This document shows, in pieces, positions 8,358-61,464 of a stretch of 64,000 nucleotides of DNA (positions are counted from its first letter, which is position 1; each line of letters begins with the position of its first letter). A program made the translations under genes and the position numbers. The DNA is from a virus: positions 62,001 to 126,000 of the IMG/VR virus record IMGVR_UViG_3300036766_000416; one strand, given 5' to 3'. A model generated the notes under the pieces. That model was not told the DNA's origin and searched no databases. It saw only the letters and a list, made by a program, of their open reading frames with translations.

Positions 8358-8428
8358 TTTGTAAAAGGACTGGAGGACTTCCTAATATGATTCGTTATCA
8401 TTTCGGAAATTGTAAGGAAAAGAAATAA
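8282..8428 (+). pseudogene. Out-of-frame C-terminal finger of the GIY-YIG gene
   Basis: In the frame ending at 8428 the sequence reads as the missing tail of the upstream endonuclease: CLICKRTGG, then MIRYHFGNC and a basic end. The Cys-x2-Cys ... His-x3-Cys layout matches the finger at the ends of the genes at 27064 and 37188. Its TAA overlaps the ATG of the giant fibre gene by one base (TAATG), the coupling expected if the endonuclease were once one reading frame. Confidence 0.65.
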
Positions 8429-11400: not shown

Positions 11401-14400
11401 AAGGTTGTGGTGGATTCGAATGGTCACGTCACTTCAGTCACCAATACTGCTATAGCAATATCCGCAACACAAATTACTTCAGGCACCTTAGCGGTTGTTC
11501 GTGGGGGTACTGGGCAGACCGCAATCACGGTGAATGGTTCGTTGTTGATTGGAAACACAGTGAGTGGGGGATTCGACGTCAATCCAATCACACAGGGAAC
11601 CAATATCACCGTTACGAACGATAAAGGTTCGATTACCATATCATCTAGCGATGCTTTCGCGCAATCCCAGGCCAATGCCGCTTATGACCGAGCGAATGCC
11701 GCCTATGCCAATGCGAACACCGCTATCTACACTGCGGCTCAAATCAGGGCTAATCTTTCGAACACCGCGCCGATCAATTATGACGCCACCACTGGTGTTA
11801 TTTCCCATGCGGTATCGGGTGTCGCCGCGAGTGGTTATGGTGATGCAGCTACGGTGCCGAAGGTTGTGGTTGATGTAACAGGGCACGTCACTTCCGTAGT
11901 GAATACCGCCATAGCAATCTCTGCTGCTGCAATCACGTCAGGTACTCTAGCGGTCGCTAGAGGAGGTACCGGTCAAACTACCATCACGGTGAATGGATCA
12001 CTCCTCATAGGTAATACAGTCTCCGGTGGCTTTGACGTCAACCCCATTACTCAAGGGACCAATATCACCATCACCAATGATAAGGGTTCGATCACGATTG
12101 CATCGTCAGATGCCTTTGCCCAGTCTCAAGCGAATGCGGCTTTTGATCGTGCCAATGCCGCCTATGCCAATGCCAATACAGCAATTTACACCGCTGCTCA
12201 AATAAGAGCCAATCTTTCCAATACTGCCCCAATCAATTACGATGCCACAACAGGAGTTATCAGTCACGCAATATCAGGTGTAACCGCTTCTGGTTACGGT
12301 GACGCGGCTACAGTAGCCAAGGTTGTTGTTGATACCTTTGGTCATGTCACTTCAGTCACCAATACTGCCATAGCAATCTCTGCTGCTGCAATCACCAGTG
12401 GCACCTTAGCGGTCGCTAGAGGTGGCACAGCACAAACGGCGATCAATGGCAATGGTTCTTTGCTCATCGGCAACACAGTCTCCGGTGGCTACGACGTCAA
12501 CACCTTGACCCAGGGAACTGGTATCGTCATCACCAACGATAAGGGATCGATCACGATTGCCGCAACAGGTGGCTCTGCGACCGATGATTATGCGAGAGCA
12601 CACGCCAATGGTGCGTTTGATAAAGCTAATGGTGCCGCACAGAATGCGTTTATTACACTCAACGTCGCTGGTCAATCCGATATCGTGGCGGATTCGAATG
12701 TAGACACCTTGATTCTTGTGGGTTCTGGTATCACCCTTACGACAGATGCGGGTACCGATACCCTAACCATCCAGCACCCGGCGTCTGGTGTTGTCGCCTC
12801 AGGTTATGGTGACGCATCGACAGTGCCGAAGTTTGTGGTCGATGCCAATGGTCACGTCACTTCGGTCACGAATACAGCCATAGCAATATCCGCAACACAA
12901 ATCACTTCAGGAACACTTGCGGTCGCCCGAGGTGGCACAGGTCAAACCGCAATCACTGTAAATGGTTCTCTCTTAATTGGAAATACTGTGTCCGGTGGTT
13001 TCGACGTCAATCCAATTACTCAAGGAACCAATATCACTGTTACAAACGATAAAGGTTCGATCACGATTTCGTCAAGTGATGCCTTTGCTCAGTCCCAAGC
13101 CAATGCGGCCTTTGATCGTGCGAATGCAGCCTATGCGAATGCCAATACAGCTATCTACACCGCGGCTCAAATAAGGGCCAATCTGTCCAACACAGCACCA
13201 ATAAATTATGACGCAACCACTGGAGTCATCAGCCATGCCTTGTCTGGTGTAACGGCCTCTGGATATGGTGACGCGGACACAGTAGCAAAGGTTGTAGTAG
13301 ACTCCAACGGGCACGTCACTTCAGTAGTGAATACGGCCATAGCAATATCCGCCACACAAATCACATCGGGAACTTTAGCAGTTGCTAGAGGTGGAACGGG
13401 TCAAACCGCGATTACGGTAAATGGCTCCTTGTTGATCGGCAATACCGTTAGTGGTGGTTTTGACGTCAACCCGATTACTCAAGGAACCAACATCACAGTT
13501 ACGAACGACAAGGGTTCAATTGCAATCTCGTCCAGTGATGCCTTTGCCCAGGCTCAAGCCAATGCGGCCTTTGCTCGTGCCAATGCGGCCTATGCCAATG
13601 CGAACACCGCTATCTACACTGCGGCTCAAATCAGGGCTAATCTTTCGAACACCGCGCCGATCAATTATGACGCCACCACTGGAGTTATCAGTCATGCTCT
13701 GTCTGGTGTAACCGCTTCGGGTTATGGTGACGCAGCTACTGTCGCAAAGGTTGTCGTGGATTCGAATGGTCATGTAACTTCAGTAGTGAATACTGCTATA
13801 GCGATTTCTGCAACACAGATTACTTCAGGCACCTTAGCAGTTGTTCGTGGAGGTACTGGACAAACCGCTATAACGGTCAACGGTTCCCTGCTCATCGGCA
13901 ACACGGTCTCTGGTGGATTCGATGTAAACCCGATTACTCAGGGCACCAATATCACGGTCACCAATGACAAGGGTTCGATCACCATATCCTCATCGGATGC
14001 GTTTGCCCAGTCTCAAGCGAACGCTGCGTTCGACAGAGCCAATGCTGCTTACGCGAATGCGAACACCGCGATTTACACCGCTGCCCAGATTCGAGCGAAC
14101 CTTAGTAACACAGCCCCAATCAATTATGATGCCACCACTGGTGTTATTTCCCATGCGTTATCTGGAGTAACGGCGAGTGGTTATGGCGATGCAGCAACGG
14201 TGGCAAAAGTCGTCGTGGACTCAAACGGTCATGTAACTTCAGTAGTGAATACTGCTATAGCAATTTCCGCTACGCAAATCACCAGTGGTACCTTAGCAGT
14301 TGTTCGCGGGGGTACCGCACAAACGGCGATCAACGGCAATGGTTCCTTGTTGATCGGCAATACGGTGTCCGGTGGCTACGACGTCAATACCTTGACCCAG

Positions 14401-17400
14401 GGTTCTGGTATCGTCATCACCAATGATAAGGGATCAATCACCGTCGCAGCCACTGGTGGTGCGGCGATCGACCAATATGCCAGAGACAAGGCGAATGGTG
14501 CTGCACAGAATGCCTTCATCACCCTGAATGTCGCCGGACAGTCGGACATTGTAGCCGACTCCAATGTAGACACACTGATTCTCGTCGGATCGGGTATCAC
14601 CCTCACGACTGATGCAGGCACCGACACATTGACGATTCAGCACCCCGCGTCGGGCGTCACACCATCAGGTTATGGTGATGCGGCCACGGTACCTAAGTTT
14701 GTGGTGGACGCAAATGGGCATGTTACATCCGTCACCAATACAGCCATCGCCATCTCCGCGACACAAATTACTTCAGGAACCTTAGCGGTCGCACGAGGAG
14801 GTACAGGACAAACAGCCATCACGGTCAACGGCTCCTTATTGATTGGAAACACGGTCTCTGGTGGATTTGACGTCAATCCAATCACCCAGGGAACGAATAT
14901 CCTCATCACCAACGACAAAGGCTCAATCACGATTGCTTCTAGCGATGCTTTCGCACAAACTCAAGCGAATGCGGCCTTTGATCGGGCGAATGCGGCCTAC
15001 GCGAATGCGAATACCGCCATCTATACTGCAGCACAAATTCGCGCCAACATCAGCAATACCGCTCCGATTAGGTATGATGCCACAACCGGAATTGTGAGTC
15101 ATGCAGATTCGGGCGTTGTCGCCTCTGGTTACGGTGATGCCGCAACCATTCCCGTCTTTGTCGCCAATGCGACCGGGCACATTTCTTCTGTCACCAATAC
15201 AGCCATCGCCATCTCTGCGACACAAATCACTTCAGGCACCCTTGCGGTCGCTCGTGGAGGTACCGCACAAACCGCCATCAACGGAAACGGTTCACTATTG
15301 ATAGGTAACACCGTCAGCGGCGGCTACGATGTCAATACCCTCACTCAAGGAACCGGAATCGTCATCACCAATGACAAGGGATCAATCAGTATAGCAGCCA
15401 CCGGTGGTGCGAGTGCTAATGGATTTGGGATCATAGAGGTTGCTGGACAAGCTAATGTGGTCGCCGACCAAGCCAATGATACCCTGTTGCTCGTCGGATC
15501 GGGTATCACCCTCACGACTGATGCAGGCACCGACACATTGACGATTCAGCACCCTGCCTCTGGAGTCGTAGCATCTGGGTACGGTGATGCAGCGACAGTA
15601 CCTAAAGTAGTGGTGGATGCGAATGGACATTTAACGTCTGTGGTCAATACTTCCATAGCGATTTCAGCAACACAAATCACCTCAGGAACCTTGGCTGTGG
15701 TGCGTGGTGGTACTGGACAAACAGCAATCACTGTAAACGGTTCCCTGCTCATAGGTAACACAGTGTCGGGTGGGTTCGACGTCAATCCAATCACTCAGGG
15801 CACCAATATCACGGTCACGAATGATAAAGGTTCAATCACCATATCGTCTAGCGACGCTTTCGCCCAATCCCAAGCCAACGCAGCCTTTGATCGCGCCAAT
15901 GCCGCCTATGCTAATGCGAATACGGCGATTTATACCGCAGCACAAATTAGGGCTAACCTTAGCAACACCGCGCCAATAAATTATGATGCGACAACGGGTA
16001 TTGTGTCTCATGCGCTATCCGGCGTGACAGCAAGTGGTTATGGTGACGCCGCCACGGTAGCGAAGGTTGTAGTAGACTCCAACGGGCACGTCACTTCCGT
16101 AGTGAACACTGCGATAGCGATTTCCGCAACACAGATCACTTCAGGTACCCTTGCAGTAGCCAGAGGTGGTACCGGTCAAACAGCGATCACTGTCAATGGT
16201 TCCCTACTGATCGGAAACACAGTTTCGGGTGGATTTGACGTTAATACACTGACTCAGGGTACTGGTATCGTTATCACCAACGACAAGGGATCGATCACCA
16301 TAGAGGCCACTGGTGGTGCGGCGACCGATCAATTCGCAAGGGATACAGCCAATGGTGCCTTCGCAAAGGCCAATGGTGCCGCACAAAATGCGTTTGTTAC
16401 ACTCACCATTGCCGGTCAATCCGATGTGGTCGCCGATTCCAACGTCGATACACTGACCTTGGTGGCTGGTGCGGATGTTGTCTTGACGACTGATGCGGGC
16501 ACCGATACGATCACGTTTGCGACTTCACGTTATGCCAAGAACGCAGTCAACAATGAGATGGCGTTTATTTACTCGGACTATGCGGCTAATGGTGTCTATA
16601 CCTCCTGGTCCACACTTCACGCCGCTTATGTGGCCTCAGGTTCCCCAGTCTGTACGATAGGATTCTGGCAGCAGGCTCCATTCAACCCAGCGTATCTTGA
16701 TATTCCTGCAGGCGCCTGGGCCTTCGAGTTTGGTACACGATGGAAGGGGTTAGGTAGCTACAGCGATGGTACTAGCATCCGTTTCCTTGAGGGCGCTACA
16801 ATATCTGGGGTACAATTCTTTGAAACGATTTATATTCTATCTAATTCTGCTGGTGGTGTTCAGCAAATTGGAAGAACAACCGACGCCAATGGTGCCTTTA
16901 CAATTGTCAATCAACCTATTCTTCATCGCGCAGCTATCCAAGGTGGTAACTCATCACAAACAGTATTCCAGTCGATAGATACTTTAACAGAGATATGGTT
17001 GGGTGAAGAATGTGTTCTCTATGCCAATTGCGTGGGTCTAGGGGCCAATGCAAATACATTCTTTGTGAACTATGCCGGACCTAGGTCGGATATAGCAGCC
17101 AATTCTTTCGTATCCACCAATGCATCTGCCGTTCTCCAATACCGAAGATTTGATGCGAGAACGTCAACAATTAGTGCCACACAAGCATTTTTTGCTGGTA
17201 TCACTCGCACTGAAGATATACCAGAGCAAATAGGTACCACGGCCGCACGTCCTCCGGTGCCATCTAACGGCCACATGTATTATGATTCCACCATAGCGGT
17301 TCCAATCTGGTGGTATAACGGCGCCTGGAGACGCCTAGTGACTGCGAACATCCCAGAATCCACCAGCAACCTATACTTTACAGCGGCCCGTGTTCGCGCC

Positions 17401-19488
17401 AACATCAGCAACACTGCTCCAATCAATTATGACTCCACCACAGGCATAGTATCACACGCGACTTCAGGTGTCACCGCAACCGGGTACGGGGATGCAAACA
17501 CCATACCCGTAGTGGTCGTTGATAACAAAGGTCACTTGTCCTCTGTGACCAATACAGCCATCACATTCTCTGATGGGTCCGCCACATCTCCCTCTATTCC
17601 TCACCGTGGAGACCTTGATACTGGATTCTGGTTCCCTGCAGCCGATACGATTGCAGCAAGCACCAATGGTCTTGAAAGACTGCGAATCACGGATGCGGGT
17701 TACATTGGCATCGGCACCAATAACCCTGTAGCCGACATTGAATTGCTGGCCAATGCTCCAGCCGCCTACATTGTCGTGACACAATACAGCGGGGCCCCTG
17801 GAGACGCCACTGATCCTGAATTCACCACACAGGCAGCCAGAGGGACACCAGGTACCCCAGCGGCCGTTCAACAGAATGATACATTGTTTGTGTTCGGAGC
17901 AGCAGCCTACAATGGCTCTGCATTCACCCCGAACAAAGTCTACTTAGAGATGGCTGCAGCCGAGAATTGGACAGCGGCCAACAACGGCACACTCATAGGA
18001 TTCAATACGACAGCAAATAATTCTACCCTTGTTACGCGGAGGATGTTGATAGACGGAAACGGCAACATCGGTATTGCGAATAGCTCACCAAAGCACAAAT
18101 TATCCATTACGGGAAATCTTTGGGTACGCGATACTGTCGTACTCCAAGACGGATTGATCGCCAACGGGACTCTAGGTGTTGTGGGTTCTGTGCTGACATC
18201 CAATAGCGCGACACCTCGATGGACTGGGGCCTCAGCGAATGGACAATTGTTTATTGGCAACACTGTGAGTGGCGGCTATGACGTCAATACGTTGACACAA
18301 GGTTCTGGTATCGTTATCACCAACACAAAGGGTGCTATTGAGATTGCTGCCACTGGTGGAGCGGCGACCGATCAGTTTGCTAGAGATACAGCCAACGGTG
18401 CCTTTACAAAAGCCAACGGGGCTGTTCAAACGGGGTTCACGATTTACGCTGTCAGTGGTCAATCGGATATCGTACCGGATTCCAATACTGACACGATAAC
18501 TCTCGTGGGTTCAGGTATTACTCTGACGACTGATGCAGGCACCGATACACTGACGGTTCAGCACCCCGCCTCTGGTGTGACTGCAAGTGGCTATGGAGAT
18601 GCAGCCACAGTTCCTAAATTTGTTGTGGATGCAAATGGTCATGTCACAAGTGTCACGAATACGGCTATCGCAATTTCCGCTACAGCGATCACCAGTGGTA
18701 CCTTAGCGGTTGCCAGAGGAGGTACTGGTCAGACGGCCATTACCGTCAATGGTTCGTTGCTCATCGGCAACACAGTCTCCGGTGGCTTCGACGTCAACCC
18801 GATCACCGCCACAACTCCAATCGTCGTTACAAACGATAAAGGCTCTATCGCACTTACTCATGCGACCTCAGGTGTCGTAGCAACTGGTCATGGTGATGCC
18901 GCGACGGTGCCTAAGTTTATTGTAGATGACAAGGGGCACGTCACCTCGGTCACCAATACGACTATCGCCATTGCTGCATCAGCGATCACTTCAGGTGTCT
19001 TGATCCAAGCCCAAGGAGGCACAGGGTTCTCTGGTGCCACAGCGAACGGACAATTACTTATTGGAAATACAGTAAGTGGTGGATTTGATCGTGCCACGTT
19101 GACACAGGGCACCAATATCACGATCACGAACGCAAAGGGATCGATCACGATTGATTCTACGGGTGGTGCTGGCAGCAATGGATTTGGTATTGTCAGTGTC
19201 TCTGGACAATCCGACGTCGTTGCAGACCAAGCCAATGATACCCTGACCATAGTTGCGGGATCGGGAATCACAATCACAACGGCTGCTGCTCTGGATCGTG
19301 TCAACATATCAGGTCAACCAATAGGAAATACCGTAGTTGGAGATTCGGTGTTCTTTGAGAATGGTCAAACTGTTACGGGTAACTATACAATTACCACAGG
19401 CAAATCCGCGATTTCTGCTGGACCCATCACACTCAACCCAGATATTATCGTGACTGTTCCTGGGGGAAGTCGCTGGGTTATCGTATAA
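8428..19488 (+). CDS. Giant repeat-built tail fibre, 3686 residues
   Basis: A single uninterrupted frame of 11 kb. After an N-terminal region of about 110 residues come tandem units of 153 residues. Each unit has SGYGDAATV-type, TSGTLAVARGGTGQT and GSLLIGNTVSGG motifs, an alanine-rich heptad-like stretch (QANAAFDRANAAYANANTA) and AAQIRANLSNTAPINYD. About nineteen SGYGDA-type motifs can be counted. A different segment (bases about 16500-18150) holds the only non-repeat domain, with IGTTAARPPVPSNGHMYYD and GYIGIGTNNP. The last residues (NYTITTGKSAISAGPITL ... VPGGSRWVIV) are the kind of end seen on many marine phage fibres. The ARGGTGQT motif is common in trimeric phage fibres. Inferred role: a very long side or long tail fibre, probably a trimer. 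Confidence 0.85.
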   Translation: MPLDPIVVQIKGGPTKVITGPAGAATRLVELSDVDATPVANGDVLTYVSANGKFEFHPTADSSNAFGVVNVAGQNNVIATTPSDTLELIAGTGILVLTDNVNNSVTIVATGGSAFDQYARDVANGAYDQANAAYANANTAIYTAAQIRANISNTAPINYSATTGIISHADSGVTATTYGNTTYVPTVTVDARGHVTSITNTAITFPPSGVTSVAGKTGAVLLDTYDIAENTSSNLWFTAARVRSNISNTAPINYEPTTGVVSHADSGVVASGYGDAATVPKVVVDSKGHATSVTNTSIAISAVAITSGTLAVARGGTGQTAITVNGSLLIGNTVSGGFDVNPITQGAGILVTNDKGSITITANVTSATDQFARDQANAAYNQANNAYANANTAIYTAAQIRANISNTAPINYDPTAGVISHALSGVAASGYGDAATVAKVVVDSNGHVTSVVNTAIAISAAAITSGTLAVVRGGTGQTAITVNGSLLIGNTVSSGFDVNPITQGAGILITNDKGSITITANVTSATDQFARDQANAAFNQANTANVTGQAAFDKANGAIYTAAQIRANLSNTAPINYDATTGVISHALSGVTASGYGDAATVAKVVVDSNGHVTSVVNTAIAISATQITSGTLAVVRGGTAQTAINGNGSLLIGNTVSGGYDVNTLTQGTGIIITNDKGSITIEATGGAATDQYARDKANGAAQNAFVTINIAGQSDVVADSNVDTLILVAGTGILLTTDSPNDTITITATGGSATDQFARDTANGAFAKANGAAQNAFVTLNVAGQSDIVADSNTDTLTIVGSGITITTDAGTDTLTIQHPASGVVASGYGDAATVPKFVVDANGHVTSVTNTAIAISATQITSGTLTVARGGTGQTAITVNGSLLIGNTVSGGFDVNPITQGTNITVTNDKGSITISSSDAFAQSQANAAYDRANAAYANANTAIYTAAQIRANLSNTTPINYDATTGVISHALSGVAASGYGDAATVAKVVVDSNGHVTSVTNTAIAISATQITSGTLAVVRGGTGQTAITVNGSLLIGNTVSGGFDVNPITQGTNITVTNDKGSITISSSDAFAQSQANAAYDRANAAYANANTAIYTAAQIRANLSNTAPINYDATTGVISHAVSGVAASGYGDAATVPKVVVDVTGHVTSVVNTAIAISAAAITSGTLAVARGGTGQTTITVNGSLLIGNTVSGGFDVNPITQGTNITITNDKGSITIASSDAFAQSQANAAFDRANAAYANANTAIYTAAQIRANLSNTAPINYDATTGVISHAISGVTASGYGDAATVAKVVVDTFGHVTSVTNTAIAISAAAITSGTLAVARGGTAQTAINGNGSLLIGNTVSGGYDVNTLTQGTGIVITNDKGSITIAATGGSATDDYARAHANGAFDKANGAAQNAFITLNVAGQSDIVADSNVDTLILVGSGITLTTDAGTDTLTIQHPASGVVASGYGDASTVPKFVVDANGHVTSVTNTAIAISATQITSGTLAVARGGTGQTAITVNGSLLIGNTVSGGFDVNPITQGTNITVTNDKGSITISSSDAFAQSQANAAFDRANAAYANANTAIYTAAQIRANLSNTAPINYDATTGVISHALSGVTASGYGDADTVAKVVVDSNGHVTSVVNTAIAISATQITSGTLAVARGGTGQTAITVNGSLLIGNTVSGGFDVNPITQGTNITVTNDKGSIAISSSDAFAQAQANAAFARANAAYANANTAIYTAAQIRANLSNTAPINYDATTGVISHALSGVTASGYGDAATVAKVVVDSNGHVTSVVNTAIAISATQITSGTLAVVRGGTGQTAITVNGSLLIGNTVSGGFDVNPITQGTNITVTNDKGSITISSSDAFAQSQANAAFDRANAAYANANTAIYTAAQIRANLSNTAPINYDATTGVISHALSGVTASGYGDAATVAKVVVDSNGHVTSVVNTAIAISATQITSGTLAVVRGGTAQTAINGNGSLLIGNTVSGGYDVNTLTQGSGIVITNDKGSITVAATGGAAIDQYARDKANGAAQNAFITLNVAGQSDIVADSNVDTLILVGSGITLTTDAGTDTLTIQHPASGVTPSGYGDAATVPKFVVDANGHVTSVTNTAIAISATQITSGTLAVARGGTGQTAITVNGSLLIGNTVSGGFDVNPITQGTNILITNDKGSITIASSDAFAQTQANAAFDRANAAYANANTAIYTAAQIRANISNTAPIRYDATTGIVSHADSGVVASGYGDAATIPVFVANATGHISSVTNTAIAISATQITSGTLAVARGGTAQTAINGNGSLLIGNTVSGGYDVNTLTQGTGIVITNDKGSISIAATGGASANGFGIIEVAGQANVVADQANDTLLLVGSGITLTTDAGTDTLTIQHPASGVVASGYGDAATVPKVVVDANGHLTSVVNTSIAISATQITSGTLAVVRGGTGQTAITVNGSLLIGNTVSGGFDVNPITQGTNITVTNDKGSITISSSDAFAQSQANAAFDRANAAYANANTAIYTAAQIRANLSNTAPINYDATTGIVSHALSGVTASGYGDAATVAKVVVDSNGHVTSVVNTAIAISATQITSGTLAVARGGTGQTAITVNGSLLIGNTVSGGFDVNTLTQGTGIVITNDKGSITIEATGGAATDQFARDTANGAFAKANGAAQNAFVTLTIAGQSDVVADSNVDTLTLVAGADVVLTTDAGTDTITFATSRYAKNAVNNEMAFIYSDYAANGVYTSWSTLHAAYVASGSPVCTIGFWQQAPFNPAYLDIPAGAWAFEFGTRWKGLGSYSDGTSIRFLEGATISGVQFFETIYILSNSAGGVQQIGRTTDANGAFTIVNQPILHRAAIQGGNSSQTVFQSIDTLTEIWLGEECVLYANCVGLGANANTFFVNYAGPRSDIAANSFVSTNASAVLQYRRFDARTSTISATQAFFAGITRTEDIPEQIGTTAARPPVPSNGHMYYDSTIAVPIWWYNGAWRRLVTANIPESTSNLYFTAARVRANISNTAPINYDSTTGIVSHATSGVTATGYGDANTIPVVVVDNKGHLSSVTNTAITFSDGSATSPSIPHRGDLDTGFWFPAADTIAASTNGLERLRITDAGYIGIGTNNPVADIELLANAPAAYIVVTQYSGAPGDATDPEFTTQAARGTPGTPAAVQQNDTLFVFGAAAYNGSAFTPNKVYLEMAAAENWTAANNGTLIGFNTTANNSTLVTRRMLIDGNGNIGIANSSPKHKLSITGNLWVRDTVVLQDGLIANGTLGVVGSVLTSNSATPRWTGASANGQLFIGNTVSGGYDVNTLTQGSGIVITNTKGAIEIAATGGAATDQFARDTANGAFTKANGAVQTGFTIYAVSGQSDIVPDSNTDTITLVGSGITLTTDAGTDTLTVQHPASGVTASGYGDAATVPKFVVDANGHVTSVTNTAIAISATAITSGTLAVARGGTGQTAITVNGSLLIGNTVSGGFDVNPITATTPIVVTNDKGSIALTHATSGVVATGHGDAATVPKFIVDDKGHVTSVTNTTIAIAASAITSGVLIQAQGGTGFSGATANGQLLIGNTVSGGFDRATLTQGTNITITNAKGSITIDSTGGAGSNGFGIVSVSGQSDVVADQANDTLTIVAGSGITITTAAALDRVNISGQPIGNTVVGDSVFFENGQTVTGNYTITTGKSAISAGPITLNPDIIVTVPGGSRWVIV
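8761..16500 (+). repeat. Tandem 459-bp coding repeats
   Basis: The unit is 153 codons, for example the copies whose GGTTATGGTGATGC motifs fall near 11371 and 11831. Protein identity between units is very high, while many third positions differ, so selection is acting at the protein level. Shortened or variant units with an inserted FVTLNVAGQSDIVADSN block occur about every third unit. Further partial units lie downstream (about 17340-17560 and 18230-19260). Confidence 0.85.
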
Positions 19489-52629: not shown

Positions 52630-53787
52630 ATGATGAAAAGTTGGCAATGTGGTTTCGAAATTGATGAACTGAAAACCTTGGAGGCCTTCTACGAGCCATA
52701 CAATCGCTATGCCCTGTCACCGTTCGGAAAATTTAAGAAGAATGACATCGCCACCAAGCTGGACAACAAGGCCTTCAACCAGGTCAACGACCGAGACGGG
52801 CACGTCGAGGCAGCTTGGGTGCGTGAAAGGTCAAAGGTACCCAGCAAGATCACGATGCACGGCAAAACCATCATTGGTGAGAAACTCAAGGGTGACGTGA
52901 CCCTTTCAAGACTCTGTGGTGACCCAGAGACCTTAGAGACCTCACTGATGCATGAGGGGTACACGATGGACAACTGCTGGCTCCTGTCCTACGGTGGGGA
53001 CACCGCGATCTGCCGGCTCGCTGAACGCCTGGGGTTCAAGAAAATTGGCTACAAGGTCACCTCGTTTGCAGAGATCATGGCGGTCTATTTTCGGGACAGT
53101 GACCTCAGTTTGGCACCCAGGAACCACCCAGTGGTGAACAAGGCTGACTTGGTGGGTATGGCAAAGATTGCGAGCATAGGGTCCACGTTGCCCTTGTTGA
53201 TTCTGCAGAAAATCCAACTCAAAGGTCTCCAATACACCAATCACTACAGCAACTACAACACCAAGAATGCCTGGTCTGCATTGGCCCTTCGAGGTTACTC
53301 AGCGGACGCCGCGTTCATCACGAAGCCCGCTGAGATGAATGACAAGTGGCATGAGGCCCACACACACGAACACTTCGAACTTCAAGATACCCCACTCTAC
53401 GCACAGTTCCCCGAAGTCAGAAAACTACTTACGTTTTTAGACGGGGAGTGCCACCGAGTCAGATTTATGCGTCTCGCCCCTGGTGGGGGAGAACTTACTC
53501 GTCATACAGACCAGGTAGACCCCGACGCTGGCAACTCACTAGGCGCGCTGGCTCGCTTGCACTTCCCTCTCAAAACCAACAAGGACGTCCTATTCAGCAC
53601 ATGGAATGGTGACGACCAAGAGGAACGCTATCACTTTGGATTCGGTGAGTGTTGGGTCATTGATACTCGGAAACCTCATATGGCTGTCAATGGGGGCACA
53701 GAGGAACGGATACACCTCGTGGTTGACGTGATTGTGACACCTAAAATCGAACGCATGATCACCGAAGGACTCTCTATTCGAGCCTAA
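52630..53787 (+). CDS. Putative GNAT/aspartyl-hydroxylase fusion
   Basis: 385 residues. C-terminal part (about 255-370) has the pattern of the aspartyl/asparaginyl beta-hydroxylase family, Fe(II)/2-oxoglutarate enzymes: RLAPGGGELTRHTDQVDP with His292 and Asp294, GFGECWVIDTRKPHMAVN with His350, and Arg360 for 2-oxoglutarate. All expected ligands are there. The N-terminal 160 residues (WLLSYGGDTAICRLAERLGFKKIGY, then a strand) resemble the end of an N-acetyltransferase fold, less certainly. Substrate unknown; protein or small molecule both possible. Lies after def and before the modification island. Confidence 0.7.
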   Translation: MMKSWQCGFEIDELKTLEAFYEPYNRYALSPFGKFKKNDIATKLDNKAFNQVNDRDGHVEAAWVRERSKVPSKITMHGKTIIGEKLKGDVTLSRLCGDPETLETSLMHEGYTMDNCWLLSYGGDTAICRLAERLGFKKIGYKVTSFAEIMAVYFRDSDLSLAPRNHPVVNKADLVGMAKIASIGSTLPLLILQKIQLKGLQYTNHYSNYNTKNAWSALALRGYSADAAFITKPAEMNDKWHEAHTHEHFELQDTPLYAQFPEVRKLLTFLDGECHRVRFMRLAPGGGELTRHTDQVDPDAGNSLGALARLHFPLKTNKDVLFSTWNGDDQEERYHFGFGECWVIDTRKPHMAVNGGTEERIHLVVDVIVTPKIERMITEGLSIRA

Positions 53788-53873: not shown

Positions 53874-56800
53874 ATGAGTACCCTCAGCAAACTTACAAAG
53901 ATTGTCAGACACAATTACAAAAAGTCTCTGGCCAGGGAACCCAAGGTTCTTCTCTATGTCTATCAGATGATGGACCACAAACCCCTGAATTCTGCCGACG
54001 GGATATACAGTCTCAAGGTGGGGGACCATTGGTGTATCTTCAGGGACATTTATGCGGCCGCCAAAAGGCGAATTCGAGAGGGGTTGGGGTGCCACAAAGC
54101 TGCCCTGGATGACGGTCGAATCAAGATTCTCGCAGTATTCGATGTGACTGTGTATGCCAAGCACCACAAGAAATATAAAAAACATGGCAAGATCGACCTC
54201 AATGTTCACAAAGTTATTCCAGGTCACTATCGAGATGACAATTTCCATGTCAACGATATTGGTGAAGTTCTAGCTCTCATCACCAAAGAAATCAACCGCT
54301 ATTCGACAGCACAACAGAAGGACACCCTCAAACTCAGCCCTCTCCAACACGATCTGCTCAGAGATTCCATTGTGGCCTACAAGGCAGGGAAACTCCGACA
54401 GTTGTTCGCCGCGGCAGCACGAATCGGAAAAACCTGTATGGCTCTGGCTCTCATGCGGGAACTGAACCTTCCGTTTATGGTGTTCGCCAGCTACGTCACG
54501 ACTTCACTCAATTCGATGATTCAGGATGCCGCAAAGTTCGCGCAATTCCACAACATCCTTGTGGTCGATACGCGAAAAAATGACTACCAACAACTCATTA
54601 GTGAAGGTCTTGCGGCGGGTAAGCAAATCGTGGCGCTCCTGAGTATGTGCAATGGTGATGATCGACAGGAACGCATCGACTTTCTCTTCAAGCTGAACCT
54701 TCTTCAAACGTTGGTGGTCGACGAGGCAGACTATGGGTCACATCAACCGACGCAAACCGAACCACTTCAAGCAGCGGTCTCTGTAAACGAATTGGTGATC
54801 CTGATGTCAGGGACCAATCCAGAACGGTCTATGAGTACCTGGAAAATCGACTTCCAGCGACACATCAGTAATCAAGACATGCAAGTGGCCAGAGGGCTGT
54901 ACCTCAGAGGTGAGTACAAACAGTCACCGAGCAAGATGCTCTTCTTCAAGAAGGACTACAGCATTCTCGGCGCGGTTGTTCCGGCTCGCTACTACCAAAT
55001 GACCCTCAAGAAACTTCAGGACCTCGCCAAACTCCAGCACCCAGAGGCCTTCACGGATGATGAACTGTGGGGTTCGTGGATCAAGTGGATGAAGAACCCA
55101 GCGAAGGCCAGTGGCCCACTGTCCATGTTCTTTGAGTCAGTCTTTGAGGGCAAGTGGAACCTCGAAGAAGTCAACACCAGGTATCAGTTTAGTATCACCC
55201 CAGGTGGACAACAAGTGGTGATGGTCTGGCTGCCTTCCTGCACCGAGACCGAGAAGATGAACTTGTTCGCTGAGATTGCTCAAAAAAGTCTCAAAAACTG
55301 GGACGTGATTCCGCTCTCTGGTGGAGTGACGACCCCCGATGGCACCAGGATGACAGGCGCGAAGGCTGAACGCCATGTGAATGAACGTATTGCCTCAGCC
55401 AAATTCAATGGCAACCGCAACGTCATGATCATCTCAGCGATCATGGGTGCCCGCTCATTCGGGATCAAGGAAATCACTGAGGTCTATCTGTGCTACGATG
55501 AGGGAGCGGTGGGTTCGACGATTCAGAAAATGTCACGAGCCCTCACACCGTTCTTCGACGGGACTGAGAAACTTGCTCGCATTGTCTCGTGCAGCTTCGA
55601 CCCTAACCGTGACGAGAAATTCGACCCACTGGTCCTTGAGTGTGCCAAGCACACCAAGGCTCTGTATGGGATACCCCTGGTCAAGGCCATCAAACTCGTG
55701 CTACGCACGTCAGACTTCTTTGTGATGACCCAGGATGGACCGAAACCCTATGAAATCTCCGCGTACCTTGAGGGTGTGTTGGCCCGCAAGAGTACCGCGC
55801 GGGTGTTCGGGAAAATTTTCAAGCTGGAAAACATTCCCACTGACCTGTTGGAGTCTATCGCCAGGGTCTCTGGAAAAATCGGCAAGACCACGAAACAAGA
55901 AGTTGCTCAACGAGGCAAGACGCTCGCTGAGGTCCTCAAGAAATCACCAGGAACCAAGAATACTCCGGCTCAAGACAAAATCTGGAAAGACATCCACAAC
56001 GGCCTGGTCTACATCGCGTCCAACATCGATTGGATCATGTGCTTCGGTCGCCGTGGGGCCTCATTGGTGGAGTGCCTGGACATTCTCGATAAGGAAACTC
56101 AGAGGACCCGGGATGGCCTCGCTGAGGATTATGGTATCCCCTATGCGGACCTCGCACGATTGCTTCGGTGCGACGTGAGTAGCCATGACCTCCTGGAGTT
56201 GGAGTCCTACGCGGGCACTGGGACCGCTAGCAACCGCACAAAATTTTCTATCGACCCAGTGGTGATGGAGATGTTGGCGATCATTCCTGAGAAGGATTGG
56301 CAGTCGTCTACCAAGACCTTTGCGGACCTGGCGATGGCAGGAGGTCAGTTTATTGTTGGGCTGGTGCGAATGCTGAGAACCTACGGACACTCAGACGAGA
56401 ACATCAGGAGTCGTGTGTTCGGATTCGACACCTGCAAGCACAGAATTCTCGCTGCTAAATACCACTGTCCAGACCTCATCGGAACCTTTGAGGTCAAAAC
56501 AATCGAGGAGTTGATGAAGATGACCCAGAAATTTGACGTGATCGTTGGGAACCCACCGTTTCAACAAAATAGCAAAATCGCAAAAGACAGCGGCACCAAT
56601 AAACTCTGGAATAAATTTACAAAACTCGCTATCGATCTTTCACCGGGGGGATATGTGACATACATCACCCCCCAATCATGGTTGGTGGGAAACAGGACAT
56701 TCGACCTGCTCACCAGTAAGAAATCAATAAGTGTTAATACCGAAATCTCTCATTATTTTCAGGGTGTTAATAGTTCTTTCTGCTCGTGGGTTCTGTCAAA

Positions 56801-57404
56801 CAAAGACAAGGACGACGCAGAAACTGGGAAGATATTTGTGAACGGCAAACCACTTGACAGTTCCCTAGGTTTGATACCCAAAGACAGATCACACAACGGT
56901 CTTTCTTTAGTTGCTAAGTTTTTTTCAAAGAAAGATAAATTTTCATTCGACCGACTTTATAATCATGGATCAACAGCCATTAAAAACGACCCAACACTAC
57001 TAGGCAAAAAAAGTCAACGATACCAACACCCAATTACATTCACCGCCTCAAAACAAGGCATTGCGTGGAGTCGCATACCAAGCCCAGTGCAGGGGAAAAA
57101 GAAAGTGATTATATTTCGTAGCGCCCCTATAAAACCCACGTATTCAACTAATGGTGTTGGTGCTGACGCCTTCTTTAAGTTAGTGACCTCGAAAGAGGAA
57201 GGAAAGAATATGGTTGAAATTTTCAACTCAAAACTCTACTCATACATTTTCAAAACCACACTCTATAGTGGATTTTTCTCTATGTCAGTGTTTAACCACA
57301 TTCCCTATCTCGATTACACCAGGTCCTGGAGTGACGCTGAAATCTATGAGCACTTCAACATCACCAAGAAAGAGCAAGCACACATTGAAGCCTACCTTGC
57401 GTGA
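53874..57404 (+). CDS. SF2 helicase-N6-adenine methyltransferase fusion
   Basis: 1176 residues. Domains in order: N-terminal region 1-145 of unclear type, perhaps a derived nuclease; superfamily 2 helicase 150-600 with Walker A AARIGKT (181-187), DEAD (283-286), SGT (312-314) and QKMSRA (551-556); helical linker 600-800; methyltransferase with motif I FADLAMAGGQF (816-826), FGFDT (849-853) and motif IV NPPF (893-896); target-recognition-like C-terminus 940-1176 ending in a helix (YEHFNITKKEQAHIEAYL). The order nuclease?-helicase-methylase-recognition resembles type ISP single-chain restriction-modification enzymes, which are longer (about 1600) and start with an Mrr-like nuclease. It could modify phage DNA or attack a rival's. 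The nuclease call is weak; helicase and methylase are firm. Confidence 0.85.
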   Translation: MSTLSKLTKIVRHNYKKSLAREPKVLLYVYQMMDHKPLNSADGIYSLKVGDHWCIFRDIYAAAKRRIREGLGCHKAALDDGRIKILAVFDVTVYAKHHKKYKKHGKIDLNVHKVIPGHYRDDNFHVNDIGEVLALITKEINRYSTAQQKDTLKLSPLQHDLLRDSIVAYKAGKLRQLFAAAARIGKTCMALALMRELNLPFMVFASYVTTSLNSMIQDAAKFAQFHNILVVDTRKNDYQQLISEGLAAGKQIVALLSMCNGDDRQERIDFLFKLNLLQTLVVDEADYGSHQPTQTEPLQAAVSVNELVILMSGTNPERSMSTWKIDFQRHISNQDMQVARGLYLRGEYKQSPSKMLFFKKDYSILGAVVPARYYQMTLKKLQDLAKLQHPEAFTDDELWGSWIKWMKNPAKASGPLSMFFESVFEGKWNLEEVNTRYQFSITPGGQQVVMVWLPSCTETEKMNLFAEIAQKSLKNWDVIPLSGGVTTPDGTRMTGAKAERHVNERIASAKFNGNRNVMIISAIMGARSFGIKEITEVYLCYDEGAVGSTIQKMSRALTPFFDGTEKLARIVSCSFDPNRDEKFDPLVLECAKHTKALYGIPLVKAIKLVLRTSDFFVMTQDGPKPYEISAYLEGVLARKSTARVFGKIFKLENIPTDLLESIARVSGKIGKTTKQEVAQRGKTLAEVLKKSPGTKNTPAQDKIWKDIHNGLVYIASNIDWIMCFGRRGASLVECLDILDKETQRTRDGLAEDYGIPYADLARLLRCDVSSHDLLELESYAGTGTASNRTKFSIDPVVMEMLAIIPEKDWQSSTKTFADLAMAGGQFIVGLVRMLRTYGHSDENIRSRVFGFDTCKHRILAAKYHCPDLIGTFEVKTIEELMKMTQKFDVIVGNPPFQQNSKIAKDSGTNKLWNKFTKLAIDLSPGGYVTYITPQSWLVGNRTFDLLTSKKSISVNTEISHYFQGVNSSFCSWVLSNKDKDDAETGKIFVNGKPLDSSLGLIPKDRSHNGLSLVAKFFSKKDKFSFDRLYNHGSTAIKNDPTLLGKKSQRYQHPITFTASKQGIAWSRIPSPVQGKKKVIIFRSAPIKPTYSTNGVGADAFFKLVTSKEEGKNMVEIFNSKLYSYIFKTTLYSGFFSMSVFNHIPYLDYTRSWSDAEIYEHFNITKKEQAHIEAYLA

Positions 57405-57825
57405 AGTGATTGAACACGTTCGCAACAGGTCCTACATGTCAGGGGTCCAACGGGATGCCCTGCGCGTCAAGGCCACTGGTGAAATCTTCACACCGACACC
57501 ACTGGTCCAGGAACTTCTGGACCAACTCCCCACTGAGGTGTTCAGTGAGCCCTCCGAGACCTTCCTAGACCCTTCCTGTGGTGACGGACAGTTTCTCGGC
57601 GAGGTCCTGATCCGCAAAATGGAGCATGGTAGCACGTTCGCTGAGGCCCTCAACACGATCTATGGTGTCGAACTGATGCCCGACAACAGGGCCCTCTGTG
57701 TTGAACGGCTCCTGTGTGGTCACGAAGAATACCGGGACCTCGTGGAGTCGCACATCGTCTGCGCTGATGCCTTGAGCTATGATTACTCGTTCGGTAAACC
57801 TGTGGGTCTGGAGAACCTGTGCTGA
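57346..57825 (+). CDS. N6-adenine methyltransferase, N-terminal half
   Basis: 160 residues if started at ATG 57346; TTG 57397 or GTG 57406 are also possible, since the recognisable domain begins at REVIEHVRNRS. The helicase-methylase gene ends at 57404, inside this one. Contains GEIFTPTPLVQELLDQL, motif I FLDPSCGDGQFLGEVL and motif II IYGVELMPDN, then DALSYDYSF, and stops just before the expected motif IV. Motif IV opens the next frame. Either a split enzyme or a frameshift. Confidence 0.75.
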   Translation: MSTSTSPRKSKHTLKPTLREVIEHVRNRSYMSGVQRDALRVKATGEIFTPTPLVQELLDQLPTEVFSEPSETFLDPSCGDGQFLGEVLIRKMEHGSTFAEALNTIYGVELMPDNRALCVERLLCGHEEYRDLVESHIVCADALSYDYSFGKPVGLENLC

Positions 57826-58394
57826 TCATTGGGAACCCTCCATTCGGCAAGAGGGCCTCTCTGGCGATAGAGTTTTTCAATCGAGCCACCCGGCTCTCCG
57901 ATGTGATTGCGTTCGTGGTGCCAGTACAGTTCAGGAAGTGGTCGGTTCAGTCCAAACTCAACCCGGAAATGCGACTGGTCCTAGACAAGGATGTTCCTGA
58001 ACACACCTTCGACGGGATACGCTGCTGTTTGCAAATCTGGAAACGGGGAGGGTCGGGTCCCGATCTACGACTGAAAGCGGCACCCACGATCACCCACAAA
58101 GACTTTTTCATGTGGCAGTATAATAATACAGAAAAGGCCAAGCGAGTGTTCGGCATCACGTTCGATTTCGCGGTACCCCGTCAAGGGTACGCAGATTACA
58201 CCAGGCGTGAGACAGACTACAGGGCCTGTGAACTGACAACCCAATGGATACTCTTTCGAGCACCCAATCCAGTGGTCTTGTCGAGACTCAAGCAATTAGA
58301 TTTTGAGGCACTTGCAAAGAAGAATACGACGATCCCTGGGTTCGGCAAAGCAGACGTGGTGAGATTGTATCATGAGGTGTATGGTGACAACTGA
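57819..58394 (+). CDS. N6-adenine methyltransferase, C-terminal half
   Basis: 191 residues from GTG 57819, which overlaps the previous TGA (GTGCTGA). Begins LIIGNPPFG, the catalytic motif IV of N6-adenine methylases, followed by SLAIEFFNRATRLSDVIAFVVP and a recognition-like region (QIWKRGGSG, FMWQYNNTEKAK). Joined to the frame before it by a single -1 shift it gives one normal methylase of about 340 residues. It overlaps the PLP-enzyme gene by 23 bases. Confidence 0.75.
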   Translation: MLIIGNPPFGKRASLAIEFFNRATRLSDVIAFVVPVQFRKWSVQSKLNPEMRLVLDKDVPEHTFDGIRCCLQIWKRGGSGPDLRLKAAPTITHKDFFMWQYNNTEKAKRVFGITFDFAVPRQGYADYTRRETDYRACELTTQWILFRAPNPVVLSRLKQLDFEALAKKNTTIPGFGKADVVRLYHEVYGDN

Positions 58395-59301
58395 ACGAGA
58401 CATCGATCACGCGCTAGACCTGATTACCCCGGTCCAGTTCGACCAGGGTCTCTATTGGAAACGCGACGACCACTTCCAACCTTTCGGGCCCCTACATGTC
58501 AATGGCGGAAAAGTCCGACAGGCGATCATGGTCTTTCGGTCCAAGCTGGAAGAGCTTCGTGACCCTGAGTGCTACGACAATGGCGTGGTCACCGCCGCCT
58601 CAGTGTACTCCCCACAATCCGCCAACATCGCCAAGGTCGCGCAGCACTATGGGGTGAAGTGTATCTCGACAGTAGGGGGAACCACTGAAGCAGGACTCCG
58701 TAAGCACCATATGATGCGGCTCACGCGGCACTACGGGTCCGAGATTCGTATTGTCGCAGGGCACGGCATGACCGCGGTGATCCACAGCCGGATGCACGAC
58801 ATTGCGAAGCAGCTTCGGTACCTCCCAATCGAAATGGGTGAACTGATGGAGGAGAACCCCACTGCAATCTTTGAGTCAACCGCTCGCCAAGTCCAGAACC
58901 TACCCGATGACCTGGACAACCTCATCGTGCCCACTGGTGTTGCCATCCAGTTGACGGGTATCCTGCGGGGCCTCAGGGAGTTTGACAAAAAAGTTGGACG
59001 GGTCGTGTGTGTCTGTGTGGGACCGACCAGAGAGAAGCAACTGAGCCACTACCTCCGTGACATTTACAAGGAAGAGGTCTCGCGGTACCACAGTGTCGAG
59101 ATGGTTGCCCACAAGGCTCCGTATTCGAAACCCTACGAGGTCAAGGTCAACGGTGAGCATATCGATGACCTCTATGAGGGCAAGGCCTTTGACTGGATGA
59201 CCAAGAACGTGGATTACCGTAACCAGAAAACCTGCTTCTGGGTCGTCGGCAAGAGGCCTAGAGTGACCGATGTTGATACCATCATCCAGGACATGCTATG
59301 A
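58372..59301 (+). CDS. PLP-dependent enzyme of the ACC deaminase/desulfhydrase type
   Basis: 309 residues. TPVQFDQGLYWKRDDHFQPFG and NGGKVRQA carry the pattern T-P-(x)-LYVKRDD-GG-K-R of fold-type II PLP enzymes; Lys47 would bind the cofactor. SVYSPQSANIAKVAQHYGVK and VPTGVAIQLTGILRGL fit the substrate/phosphate-binding loops. Substrate cannot be read from sequence. Such enzymes appear in phage base-hypermodification pathways, and this gene lies between two DNA methylases, so action on a modified base or its precursor is plausible. An ATG at 58381 is an alternative start. The stop overlaps the next ATG. Confidence 0.8.
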   Translation: MRCMVTTERDIDHALDLITPVQFDQGLYWKRDDHFQPFGPLHVNGGKVRQAIMVFRSKLEELRDPECYDNGVVTAASVYSPQSANIAKVAQHYGVKCISTVGGTTEAGLRKHHMMRLTRHYGSEIRIVAGHGMTAVIHSRMHDIAKQLRYLPIEMGELMEENPTAIFESTARQVQNLPDDLDNLIVPTGVAIQLTGILRGLREFDKKVGRVVCVCVGPTREKQLSHYLRDIYKEEVSRYHSVEMVAHKAPYSKPYEVKVNGEHIDDLYEGKAFDWMTKNVDYRNQKTCFWVVGKRPRVTDVDTIIQDML

Positions 59302-60878
59302 ACTACTTCTATGAACGGGGCACCGAACTACTCGAATCACCCGTCAACAAAACGTTCGACGAACTGTTGGTCATGAGCACCGAGGAATTTCGACAATGGG
59401 TCATCGACCTTCGCAAGACCGTCGTGTACCTCTGGGATACCAAGGGACAGCCGCCACGGGTGGGCTACGACGAAGCAGGGATCATCAAACAGTTTCGGGA
59501 ACTAGAGCCCTTCATCACCGAGACCTTCGAGCAGCTTGACGAGTGCACCGGTGAACGGAACGTGATCCGCAACACCTCGAACCTTGGGAACGCGGTGAAC
59601 CAGTGGTTTCCCACGATGATGAAGGTGCGTATCAACTACACGAAGGACGTCGACGCAGGGAAATCTATCTACGATTTTTTCGCTAAGGACTCTTTGCTCG
59701 ATACGTTCGTGACCTATGCGTCAAGACATTTTCACAGAGACTCGTTCTACAACTTCTCGCTGACCTTGCAGGCCTCTGACACCACACGGTACGGTCAGGT
59801 CCCTGTGGCGACAACGGGTCTGGAGTGGGTCCGACAATTCGAGACTGATGGGTACCGCAACCGTGGACAGTGGGATTACTGGCTCGAAACGATAGCTGCC
59901 ACGAAAACTTATACGGGCTACAACGAAGTTCTCAAAGACCGTCAGTACCTCCAGGTGTCTCAGCAAGAATTGGAGACCCTAGGTGACCTGGTACCCGCCC
60001 GATGCACAACCAACATCAACAGGTCCAAAGGTGACCTCTGTGCCATCAGGGTCTATGAGACCGGGCAGAAGGTGTTTCCAGTAGGCCTCAAGGCATTCCG
60101 TATGAGCTTCTGCCAGTACGCGGTCCAATGGCCTCCATTGACAGCCAAGCATATCATTGAACGGTTTACAAACGAGTGGAAATCTGAACCCACAATATAT
60201 TGTTGGGACCCTAGTGCTGGGTGGGGCGGGCGATTGCTCGGTGCTTTGGCAGTCGAGGATAAGCGTCACATCACCTATCTGGCCAATGACCCCAACAGCG
60301 ATCATACAACAACTCTAGGGCGGACTAAGTATCACGAGGTATACGACTTCTATTGCCAGCACGTTCCTAAAGGTGGAATTTTTGGTGCGGAGCACACTGA
60401 ATTCAAATTTTGGCAACTGGGGTCGGAGCTGATGCACCGTGACCCCGGCTTTTGTGAATATAAAGGAAAAATATCTCTGGTGTTTACCAGCCCACCATAT
60501 TTTTGCAAAGAAGCCTACTCGGAGGACCCCTCACAGTCCTACAAGAAATTCTCGCAGTACGATCAGTGGCGCGATGGGTTTCTCAAGAGGACCTTGGAGA
60601 CTGCTGTTGAGTGGTTGCGACCCGGTGGGTATCTGGCTTGGAATATAGCGAACGCCACATTTAGCGGAGATAGATTGCCCTTAGAAAATGATTCCAATGT
60701 TATCCTAAAATCGCTTGGTATGGAGTACGTGCAGGTGCTGAAAATGTCCCTTGCTCAAACCCCGGGCGGCAATAGACTAGACAAAGTTACAGGACTTCCA
60801 AAAACAGAGCATTCCTGCAAAGTGGGAGGGTTGTGGTTGAAATGGGAACCTATTCTAATATGGCGCAAACCGAAATAA
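59298..60878 (+). CDS. DNA methyltransferase-like protein
   Basis: 526 residues. The C-terminal 240 form a SAM-dependent methylase: motif I WDPSAGWGGRLLGAL (303-317), FTSPPYFCKEAYSED (396 on) and WLRPGGYLAWNI. TSPPYF is the N4-cytosine/N6-adenine type of motif IV. The N-terminal 290 residues are not recognised (IRNTSNLGNAVNQWFPTMMKVRI, GDLCAIRVYETGQKVFPVG) and are unusual for a simple methylase. It starts in the stop of the PLP-enzyme gene (ATGA). The coupling implies the two act together, perhaps in a modification beyond methylation. Convergent with the next gene, overlapping by 29 bases. Confidence 0.8.
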   Translation: MNYFYERGTELLESPVNKTFDELLVMSTEEFRQWVIDLRKTVVYLWDTKGQPPRVGYDEAGIIKQFRELEPFITETFEQLDECTGERNVIRNTSNLGNAVNQWFPTMMKVRINYTKDVDAGKSIYDFFAKDSLLDTFVTYASRHFHRDSFYNFSLTLQASDTTRYGQVPVATTGLEWVRQFETDGYRNRGQWDYWLETIAATKTYTGYNEVLKDRQYLQVSQQELETLGDLVPARCTTNINRSKGDLCAIRVYETGQKVFPVGLKAFRMSFCQYAVQWPPLTAKHIIERFTNEWKSEPTIYCWDPSAGWGGRLLGALAVEDKRHITYLANDPNSDHTTTLGRTKYHEVYDFYCQHVPKGGIFGAEHTEFKFWQLGSELMHRDPGFCEYKGKISLVFTSPPYFCKEAYSEDPSQSYKKFSQYDQWRDGFLKRTLETAVEWLRPGGYLAWNIANATFSGDRLPLENDSNVILKSLGMEYVQVLKMSLAQTPGGNRLDKVTGLPKTEHSCKVGGLWLKWEPILIWRKPK

Positions 60879-61464
60879 CTTCAGTACATTTCCATCCTTT
60901 ATGATGCCTCCTTTCCCCGCGAGATGTTGACCACATGTGGCTAACATTCAGCTTATTGGTTCTACAGAACCCCTTCAGGTTTGTTATTTGAAAAGTACTC
61001 CCGGCAGGTGATGTCACCTCCCAGTGTTTATCTCTCTTTCCGCGTATAACTTCAGCAACTTTCCTAACATGTTCTGGGGATTGTGGACCCGTTTTTATTC
61101 CTCTATTCCAGGGAATTCTTCTCTTGAACCTCGCAATAGTCTCTGGCGAGTGTCTGAAACCAAGTTGTCCCTCTCCGCCGTAGGGCATATTATAGCCCTT
61201 GCCAGTAGAGTAGTGTGAATCATAAAGACGAATAAAATAACCCTCCATAATGTTCAACACAAAATCTTTATCAGGTGACTCATACTCAATAGTCCAATCG
61301 AATCCAGACGCACCATATTTCTTGATGGCTTGATGAAACACAACCCCCTGAGCTTTTGACTTTGCTTCCCATAGATGGATATACTTTCGTTTAGGCCAAG
61401 CAGAGTCGTACCCGATATAGACTTTTCCGTTGGTCTTGTTTGTCGCTTTATAAATGACAGGCAT
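60850..61464 (-). CDS. GIY-YIG homing endonuclease, minus strand
   Basis: 204 residues and the only minus-strand gene in the window. Nuclease motifs: PVIYKATNKTNGKVYIGYD, HQAIKKYG, NIMEGYFIRL and the YNMPYGGEG block. A NUMOD-like segment (HSPETIARFKRRIPWNRG) follows. The C-terminus (KHWEVTSPAGSTFQITNLKGFC ... HHKGWKC) matches the end of the GIY-YIG enzyme at 45366. Start ATG at 61462-61464; a weak -10-like TATAAG on the minus strand ends seven bases before it. Mobile insertion in antisense orientation downstream of the methylase. Confidence 0.88.
   Translation of the reverse strand: MPVIYKATNKTNGKVYIGYDSAWPKRKYIHLWEAKSKAQGVVFHQAIKKYGASGFDWTIEYESPDKDFVLNIMEGYFIRLYDSHYSTGKGYNMPYGGEGQLGFRHSPETIARFKRRIPWNRGIKTGPQSPEHVRKVAEVIRGKRDKHWEVTSPAGSTFQITNLKGFCRTNKLNVSHMWSTSRGERRHHKGWKCTEVISVCAILE

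Follow-up and report, generated by a model that had tools for sequence, protein, structure and literature searches.

Locus and domain layout of the fused chain

The DNA analysed here, referred to as the window, is a stretch of 64,000 nt (positions 62,001 to 126,000 of IMG/VR record IMGVR_UViG_3300036766_000416). The source record is viral, phage T4-like and 178,609 bp long, and the window also encodes myovirus terminase, portal, scaffold, major head/capsid and tail-sheath genes. A single uninterrupted, ATG-started frame of 1176 aa (protein P0001, termed ABC) was found on the plus strand, and the opposite strand contains stops throughout. The system is larger than this frame, to which the sequence-only reading had confined it: a conserved partner gene, D, overlaps the 3' end of ABC and lies mostly beyond it. 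The features, with the evidence for each where it is of a particular kind, are:

53874-57404 (+): ABC, fused helicase-methylase chain (P0001); ORF, Pfam, family profiles, AF2 and Foldseek
53943-54308 (+): N-terminal domain, aa 24-145, probably a diverged T5orf172/GIY-YIG-like domain; AF2, conservation, Pfam matches of relatives, BFVD
54321-54908 (+): RecA1 of the SF2 motor, aa 150-345, with ARIGKT, DEAD and SGT; together with the N-terminal domain it corresponds to gene A of relatives
54909-55757 (+): RecA2 of the motor, aa 346-628, with QKMSRA and SFDPNRD; together with the coupler it corresponds to gene B of relatives
55758-56228 (+): linker/coupler-like helical region, aa 629-785, low confidence; AF2 secondary structure
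56229-56753 (+): gamma-type N6-adenine methylase domain, aa 786-960; Eco57I Pfam, alignment of C
56754-57401 (+): target-recognition-like C-terminal region, aa 961-1176; position, and the variable part of tandem C genes
57346-57825 (+): D, 159-aa half-methylase; motifs, and a homologue in 59 of 80 distinct A/B loci
57819-58394 (+): E, 191-aa catalytic half without SAM head; begins VLIIGNPPF, GTG start

The frame and every motif named in the sequence-only reading were located in P0001, namely AARIGKT (aa 181-187), DEAD (283-286), SGT (312-314), QKMSRA (551-556), FADLAMAGGQF (816-826) and GNPPF (892-896). The motor motifs are not a chance occurrence, since R183, G185 and K186 are present in 49/49 and Q551 and R555 in 52/52 aligned relatives. 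In Pfam, the Eco57I family matches aa 878-953 above its cut-off (E 2.4e-13), and ResIII matches aa 152-225 weakly (E 0.09). A single-sequence phmmer search of P0001 against the PDB gave no match. The coupler-like region (aa 629 to about 785-790) is predicted to be helical with an AF2 pLDDT mostly below 50, and it shows a weak profile match to the corresponding part of plasmid and bacterial motors.

Upstream, an sbcCD-like gene pair precedes ABC, which lies away from the head genes, and an aspartyl/asparaginyl beta-hydroxylase-like protein is encoded directly upstream (52630-53787, +).

Fusion states and methylase halves of the viral module

A tblastn search against annotated phages returned distant matches only, in Synechococcus and Tenacibaculum phages. 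The single protein retrieved no relatives from viral contigs; alignment A1 succeeded and yielded 154 relatives in IMG/VR, from which 76 loci were kept. A second search with an alignment of the motor gave 96 relatives and 77 kept loci, many of them on contigs shared with the A1 search. Alignment A8, a full-length one that also took in fragments of A, B and C, was discarded because it misplaced the B pieces.

Four parts were delimited by profile: A comprises the N-terminal domain and RecA1, B comprises RecA2 and the coupler, C comprises the methylase and the target recognition domain (TRD), and D is a half-methylase. The four parts occur collinearly in almost all of the 80 distinct viral loci, variously fused or split, and the chain in the window is the fused form of this module. 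A and B are fused in about half of the loci and separate in roughly thirty; fully fused chains are confined to a handful. D was found in 59 of the 80 distinct loci having A or B, and some of the loci without D are contig ends. The split between A and B, which separates RecA1 from RecA2, is found in L016, L019, L025-L032, L042, L055, L060, L068, L002 and others. It is not a sequencing error, as numerous contigs, and also the finished genome of S-CAM7 0809CC03, share this boundary. The equivalent of P0001 is encoded by two or three adjacent genes in S-CAM7 and by one gene in MA01. The enzyme is not self-contained: a half-methylase gene lies alongside, and most relatives carry the same domains in two or three genes. 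Two enzyme architectures stand out as unusual: a helicase divided between RecA1 and RecA2, and a SAM-binding half-methylase that stands alone.

In a phylogenetic reconstruction based on RecA1, the window chain groups within a clade with strong support (100/99) whose other members are unfused, apart from the other fused systems, which indicates that the fusion arose more than once. Its branch is long (1.39), and some long-branch joins in this tree were flagged.

The methylase parts differ in the motifs that they retain. Across the family, D keeps motif X (GE[VI]FTP) and the canonical SAM motif DPSCGDGQF and is missing NPPY. C nearly always keeps NPPY; many lineages have a C with an altered SAM motif or none, for example L065, L047, L037 and L006 as well as the cyanophages S-CAM7 0910CC49 and ACG-2014f. 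Catalytic proteins without any head are encoded in L005, L059, L073 and L027. The window follows this pattern: the SAM motif of its C domain is altered to FADLAMAGGQF (usually DPAMGGGQF) with GNPPF intact, and its D carries the motif X-like EIFTPTPLV and the canonical FLDPSCGDGQF without NPPY. As judged from these motifs, D would supply or complete SAM binding for both C and E. Relatives of E with a complete or degenerate head are present in XbC2 and ACG-2014f.

The GTG start of E overlaps the stop codon of D (GTGCTGA). A frameshift artefact was considered for the D/E split; dozens of relatives without E have a D that terminates at a similar point, and the stop of D is therefore probably genuine. 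A programmed shift between D and E is conceivable.

In some loci there are two to five C genes whose heads are conserved and whose tails are unrelated. One such array, L029:3311-9814 (IMGVR_UViG_3300025139_000012), encodes five C genes after one motor, with heads 92-96% identical and tails 22-46% identical. The same pattern is found in L052 (four of its five C genes, heads 64-85%), L042 (73-74%) and L019 (77%). Between loci, the mean identity of C genes is 56% for heads and 28% for tails. Since the variable tails coincide with the recognition region, the arrays look like specificity cassettes, and they suggest a route by which DNA specificity could be diversified in phages. No tandem C array is present in the window.

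Predicted structure and the N-terminal domain

The AlphaFold model of the whole chain (1176 residues) has a pLDDT of 79 and a pTM of 0.53. In Foldseek, LlaBIII is its top PDB match (1363 columns, E 1.8e-16); lower ranks are taken by the CamA methylase, nucleosome remodellers and, at rank 5, SauUSI. With TM-scores of about 0.2 and an unreliable placement of domains in the model, the LlaBIII match supports the domain order and the class and not membership. A phage-encoded single chain with an SF2 motor, a gamma-type adenine methylase and a C-terminal recognition-like region, as first proposed from the sequence, is borne out, with LlaBIII as the nearest solved structure.

The Type ISP enzymes LlaGI and LlaBIII are likewise single chains in which an N-terminal domain, an SF2 motor, a helical coupler, a gamma N6A methylase and a TRD follow one another; their N-terminal domain is an Mrr-family nuclease (PMC4666363, PMC4872093). 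ABC differs in that no Mrr nuclease was detected, in the lack of a sequence match and in the additional subunits D and E. It is also shorter, at 1176 aa, than the LlaBIII chain in 4xqk (about 1500 residues). No sequence kinship with LlaGI or LlaBIII was detected by phmmer or by profile search of PDB sequences; profiles of the chain reach M.TaqI. The likeness to Type ISP stands for the domain order and the structural match, and fails for the nuclease and for sequence kinship. ABC is not a Type ISP member; judged by its model, it has an ISP-like order of helicase, coupler-like region, methylase and recognition-like region. A Type ISP enzyme proper, with an Mrr nuclease diverged beyond recognition, would show this order and have LlaBIII as its best structural match, but it is highly improbable given the missing sequence match in single-sequence and profile searches, the D subunit, which is absent from the published ISP description, and an N-terminal domain that by its topology, its motifs and its relatives resembles T5orf172.

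For the N-terminal domain, the AF2 prediction from 46 sequences reached a pLDDT of 82 (core above 90) and shows the topology beta-beta-alpha-beta-alpha-beta-alpha, an order of elements that fits T5orf172/GIY-YIG. G50 and D108 are invariant across these 46 very diverged sequences, and Y28 and K48 are nearly so. Among the relatives, Pfam matched MUG113 in 10/49 and T5orf172 in 9/49 N-terminal domains (best E 8e-12); those of L076, L077, L078 and L072 exceed the T5orf172 cut-off, and that of ACG-2014f matches GIY-YIG weakly (E 0.064). The domain of the window protein itself has no Pfam match. A Foldseek search of this domain against the PDB gave none at E<0.001 (best, a ribosomal protein, E 0.25). 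Against the viral structures of BFVD, nothing was found at 0.001; the best match has E 0.006, the first named T5orf172 follows at E 0.05, and the named matches near the top are mostly T5orf172, GIY-YIG or BRO-type proteins. Pfam and the PDB fold search gave no support for an Mrr/PD-(D/E)XK nuclease.

Direct comparison of the window domain with T5orf172 by hhalign was weak (P 0.003-0.011; 0.0057 in a further run). With one T5orf172 seed, hmmsearch placed it above decoys (E 0.019/0.0093); this separation was lost with a wider seed and with the reverse profile. A chain of intermediate sequences leads from T5orf172 to the intermediates (E 1e-11) but does not link these to the window clade (P 0.095). 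In view of these weak tests and the broken chain, the T5orf172/GIY-YIG fold is regarded as probable, with some reserve. A diverged T5orf172 (GIY-YIG) domain with a Glu to Asp exchange is what the motifs, the topology and the aligned relatives jointly suggest; pure sequence support for it is weak.

This exchange bears on activity. The catalytic Glu of GIY-YIG nucleases, which ordinary cellular T5orf172 domains carry, is Asp (D108) in the window subfamily and in bacterial helicase-fused relatives. At position 123, only the window protein has Asn (Glu/Asp in 48/49), and the position of R66 is occupied by Tyr in 12/49 relatives. Given the Glu to Asp exchange and the window-specific Asn123, nuclease activity of the window copy has an even chance at best.

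Asn123, together with the long RecA1 branch and the departure of FADLAMAGGQF from DPAMGGGQF, would also suit a diverging or decaying copy that has lost restriction, and perhaps methylation, and survives as a scaffold or motor. This is unlikely in light of the uninterrupted 1176-aa frame, the intact Walker A, DEAD and NPPF motifs and the intact D and E alongside.

Related systems and proposed function

The nearest annotated cellular kin are plasmid-borne or chromosomal sets of D (small N-6 methylase), C (Eco57I methylase) and a T5orf172-helicase:

Sphingopyxis plasmid NZ_CP012704: 208-aa N-6 methylase (D), 526-aa Eco57I methylase (C), 852-aa T5orf172-helicase (AB)
Enterococcus plasmid NZ_CP091211: 248 aa (D) and 1445 aa (ABC)
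Pediococcus plasmid NZ_CP023006: 279 aa (D) and 1410 aa (ABC)
L171, bacterial chromosomal contig: homologous set with an FRG-type gene inserted

The inserted gene (L171:2701-3570, -) is an FRG/PDC-S15-type candidate defence gene located between the methylase and the T5orf172-helicase.

As in the window, a homologous motor A, a methylase C with NPP(Y/F) and a D-like half-methylase are encoded side by side, and these sets match the viral profiles of A (E 1e-27 to 1e-34) and C (E 1e-41 to 1e-74). In the plasmid and bacterial sets, however, D precedes C, whereas in the window the fused chain is followed by D and E; several of them have a clear T5orf172 domain, and their identity to the window system is distant only. 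The PADLOC model PDLC03626 (REase_MTase_IIG, Type IIG) gives 1.7e-39 for the bacterial motor and 2.8e-59 for its methylase; on the phage proteins it is weak (P0001 1.7e-7, S-CAM7 1.8e-7). Scanning GTDB with a pattern from the A alignment gave one short MAG match only, which is no sign that cells lack the system, as more distant plasmid and bacterial relatives were found by other searches. Neither a published description of the family of T5orf172-helicase, Eco57I methylase and D nor a restriction assay for it was found in the literature searched, which largely excluded subscription journals; restriction is assigned to it by annotation only.

Among phages, the cyanophages S-CAM7, MA01 and ACG-2014f encode the same A/B, C or E-type and D parts (annotated as 'type II R-M restriction subunit' or hypothetical), in other fusion states and with degenerate SAM heads in several catalytic subunits (S-CAM7 0910CC49, MA01, ACG-2014f). 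The window system is a real and conserved phage-carried member of a widespread restriction-modification-like family of phages and plasmids, with an ISP-like build, probably a T5orf172-like N-terminal domain, and extra half-methylase subunits.

ABC with its partners D and E may constitute a phage-borne, ATP-driven, translocating restriction-modification-like machine, which is the most likely reading, at about even odds. The C-terminal region of ABC would read a DNA site, at which the C methylase domain, together with the better SAM pocket of D, would methylate adenine; E would probably act as a second catalytic half for D. At an unmethylated site, the SF2 motor would translocate along duplex DNA and the T5orf172-like domain would nick or cut it. 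Unmarked host or competitor DNA would thereby be attacked and marked phage DNA spared. This reading draws on the LlaBIII match, the collinearity of the module, the homologous plasmid sets, PDLC03626, the conserved motor motifs, the invariance of G50 and D108, the T5orf172 matches of relatives and the SAM motif kept by D. A further precedent is ICP1 Odn (gp88), a DNA-attacking phage protein with an assigned T5orf172 fold and proven nuclease activity (PMC8263062). Odn differs from ABC in its RepA-like DNA-binding domain and the lack of a motor and methylase, and it retains the catalytic Glu (E180), the E180A mutant being dead (PMC8263062). Weak T5orf172 sequence homology, the Glu to Asp exchange, Asn123 and the altered SAM motif of C count against the machine.

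A modification-only or anti-restriction device, in which the motor would bring the methylase along DNA of the phage itself, with an N-terminal domain that is dead or a DNA-binding relic, is a less probable though serious alternative, functionally similar to P1 DarB. Self-methylation benefits phages, and the Glu to Asp exchange across the subfamily, Asn123 in the window only and Tyr at R66 in 12/49 relatives are consistent with it. Methylase-helicase dyads such as DarB are known in phages (PMC5512222), and ABC resembles them in joining a phage methylase to an SF2 ATPase. DarB-type dyads, however, are virion proteins in which the methylase comes before a SWI2/SNF2 motor; in ABC this order is reversed, the motor matches ResIII weakly and not SNF2, and the gene is located outside the head region, after sbcCD-like genes. 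The invariance of G50 and D108 over 46 very diverged sequences also suggests that function was retained.

Phages are the usual targets of restriction systems. Extended to the family, the restriction-modification-like machine leads to a tentative proposal, about as probable as the modification-only device: large phages may carry a modular, multi-specificity translocating machine, in which one motor with a GIY-YIG-like cutter and a shared SAM-binding D would serve exchangeable methylase/reader subunits, arranged as tandem cassettes with conserved heads and variable tails. The machine would be used offensively, distinguishing marked phage DNA from that of the host or a rival, and its RecA halves and methylase halves would work as separate chains. 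A common phage module with a motor, a methylase, a possible cutter and, in some loci, reader arrays would make phage-on-phage and phage-on-host restriction directly testable.

Further genes of the window include a PLP-dependent enzyme (58372-59301, +; Pfam PALP, E 1.4e-12), an unusual metabolic gene within the cluster, and a 526-aa protein (59298-60878, +) with a C-terminal N6_N4_Mtase-like domain and an SPPYF motif, which is a further putative DNA methylase. Right after this methylase cluster, a GIY-YIG/HNH-type homing endonuclease-like gene is located on the opposite strand (60850-61464, -). An open frame of 3686 aa spans 8428-19488 (+).
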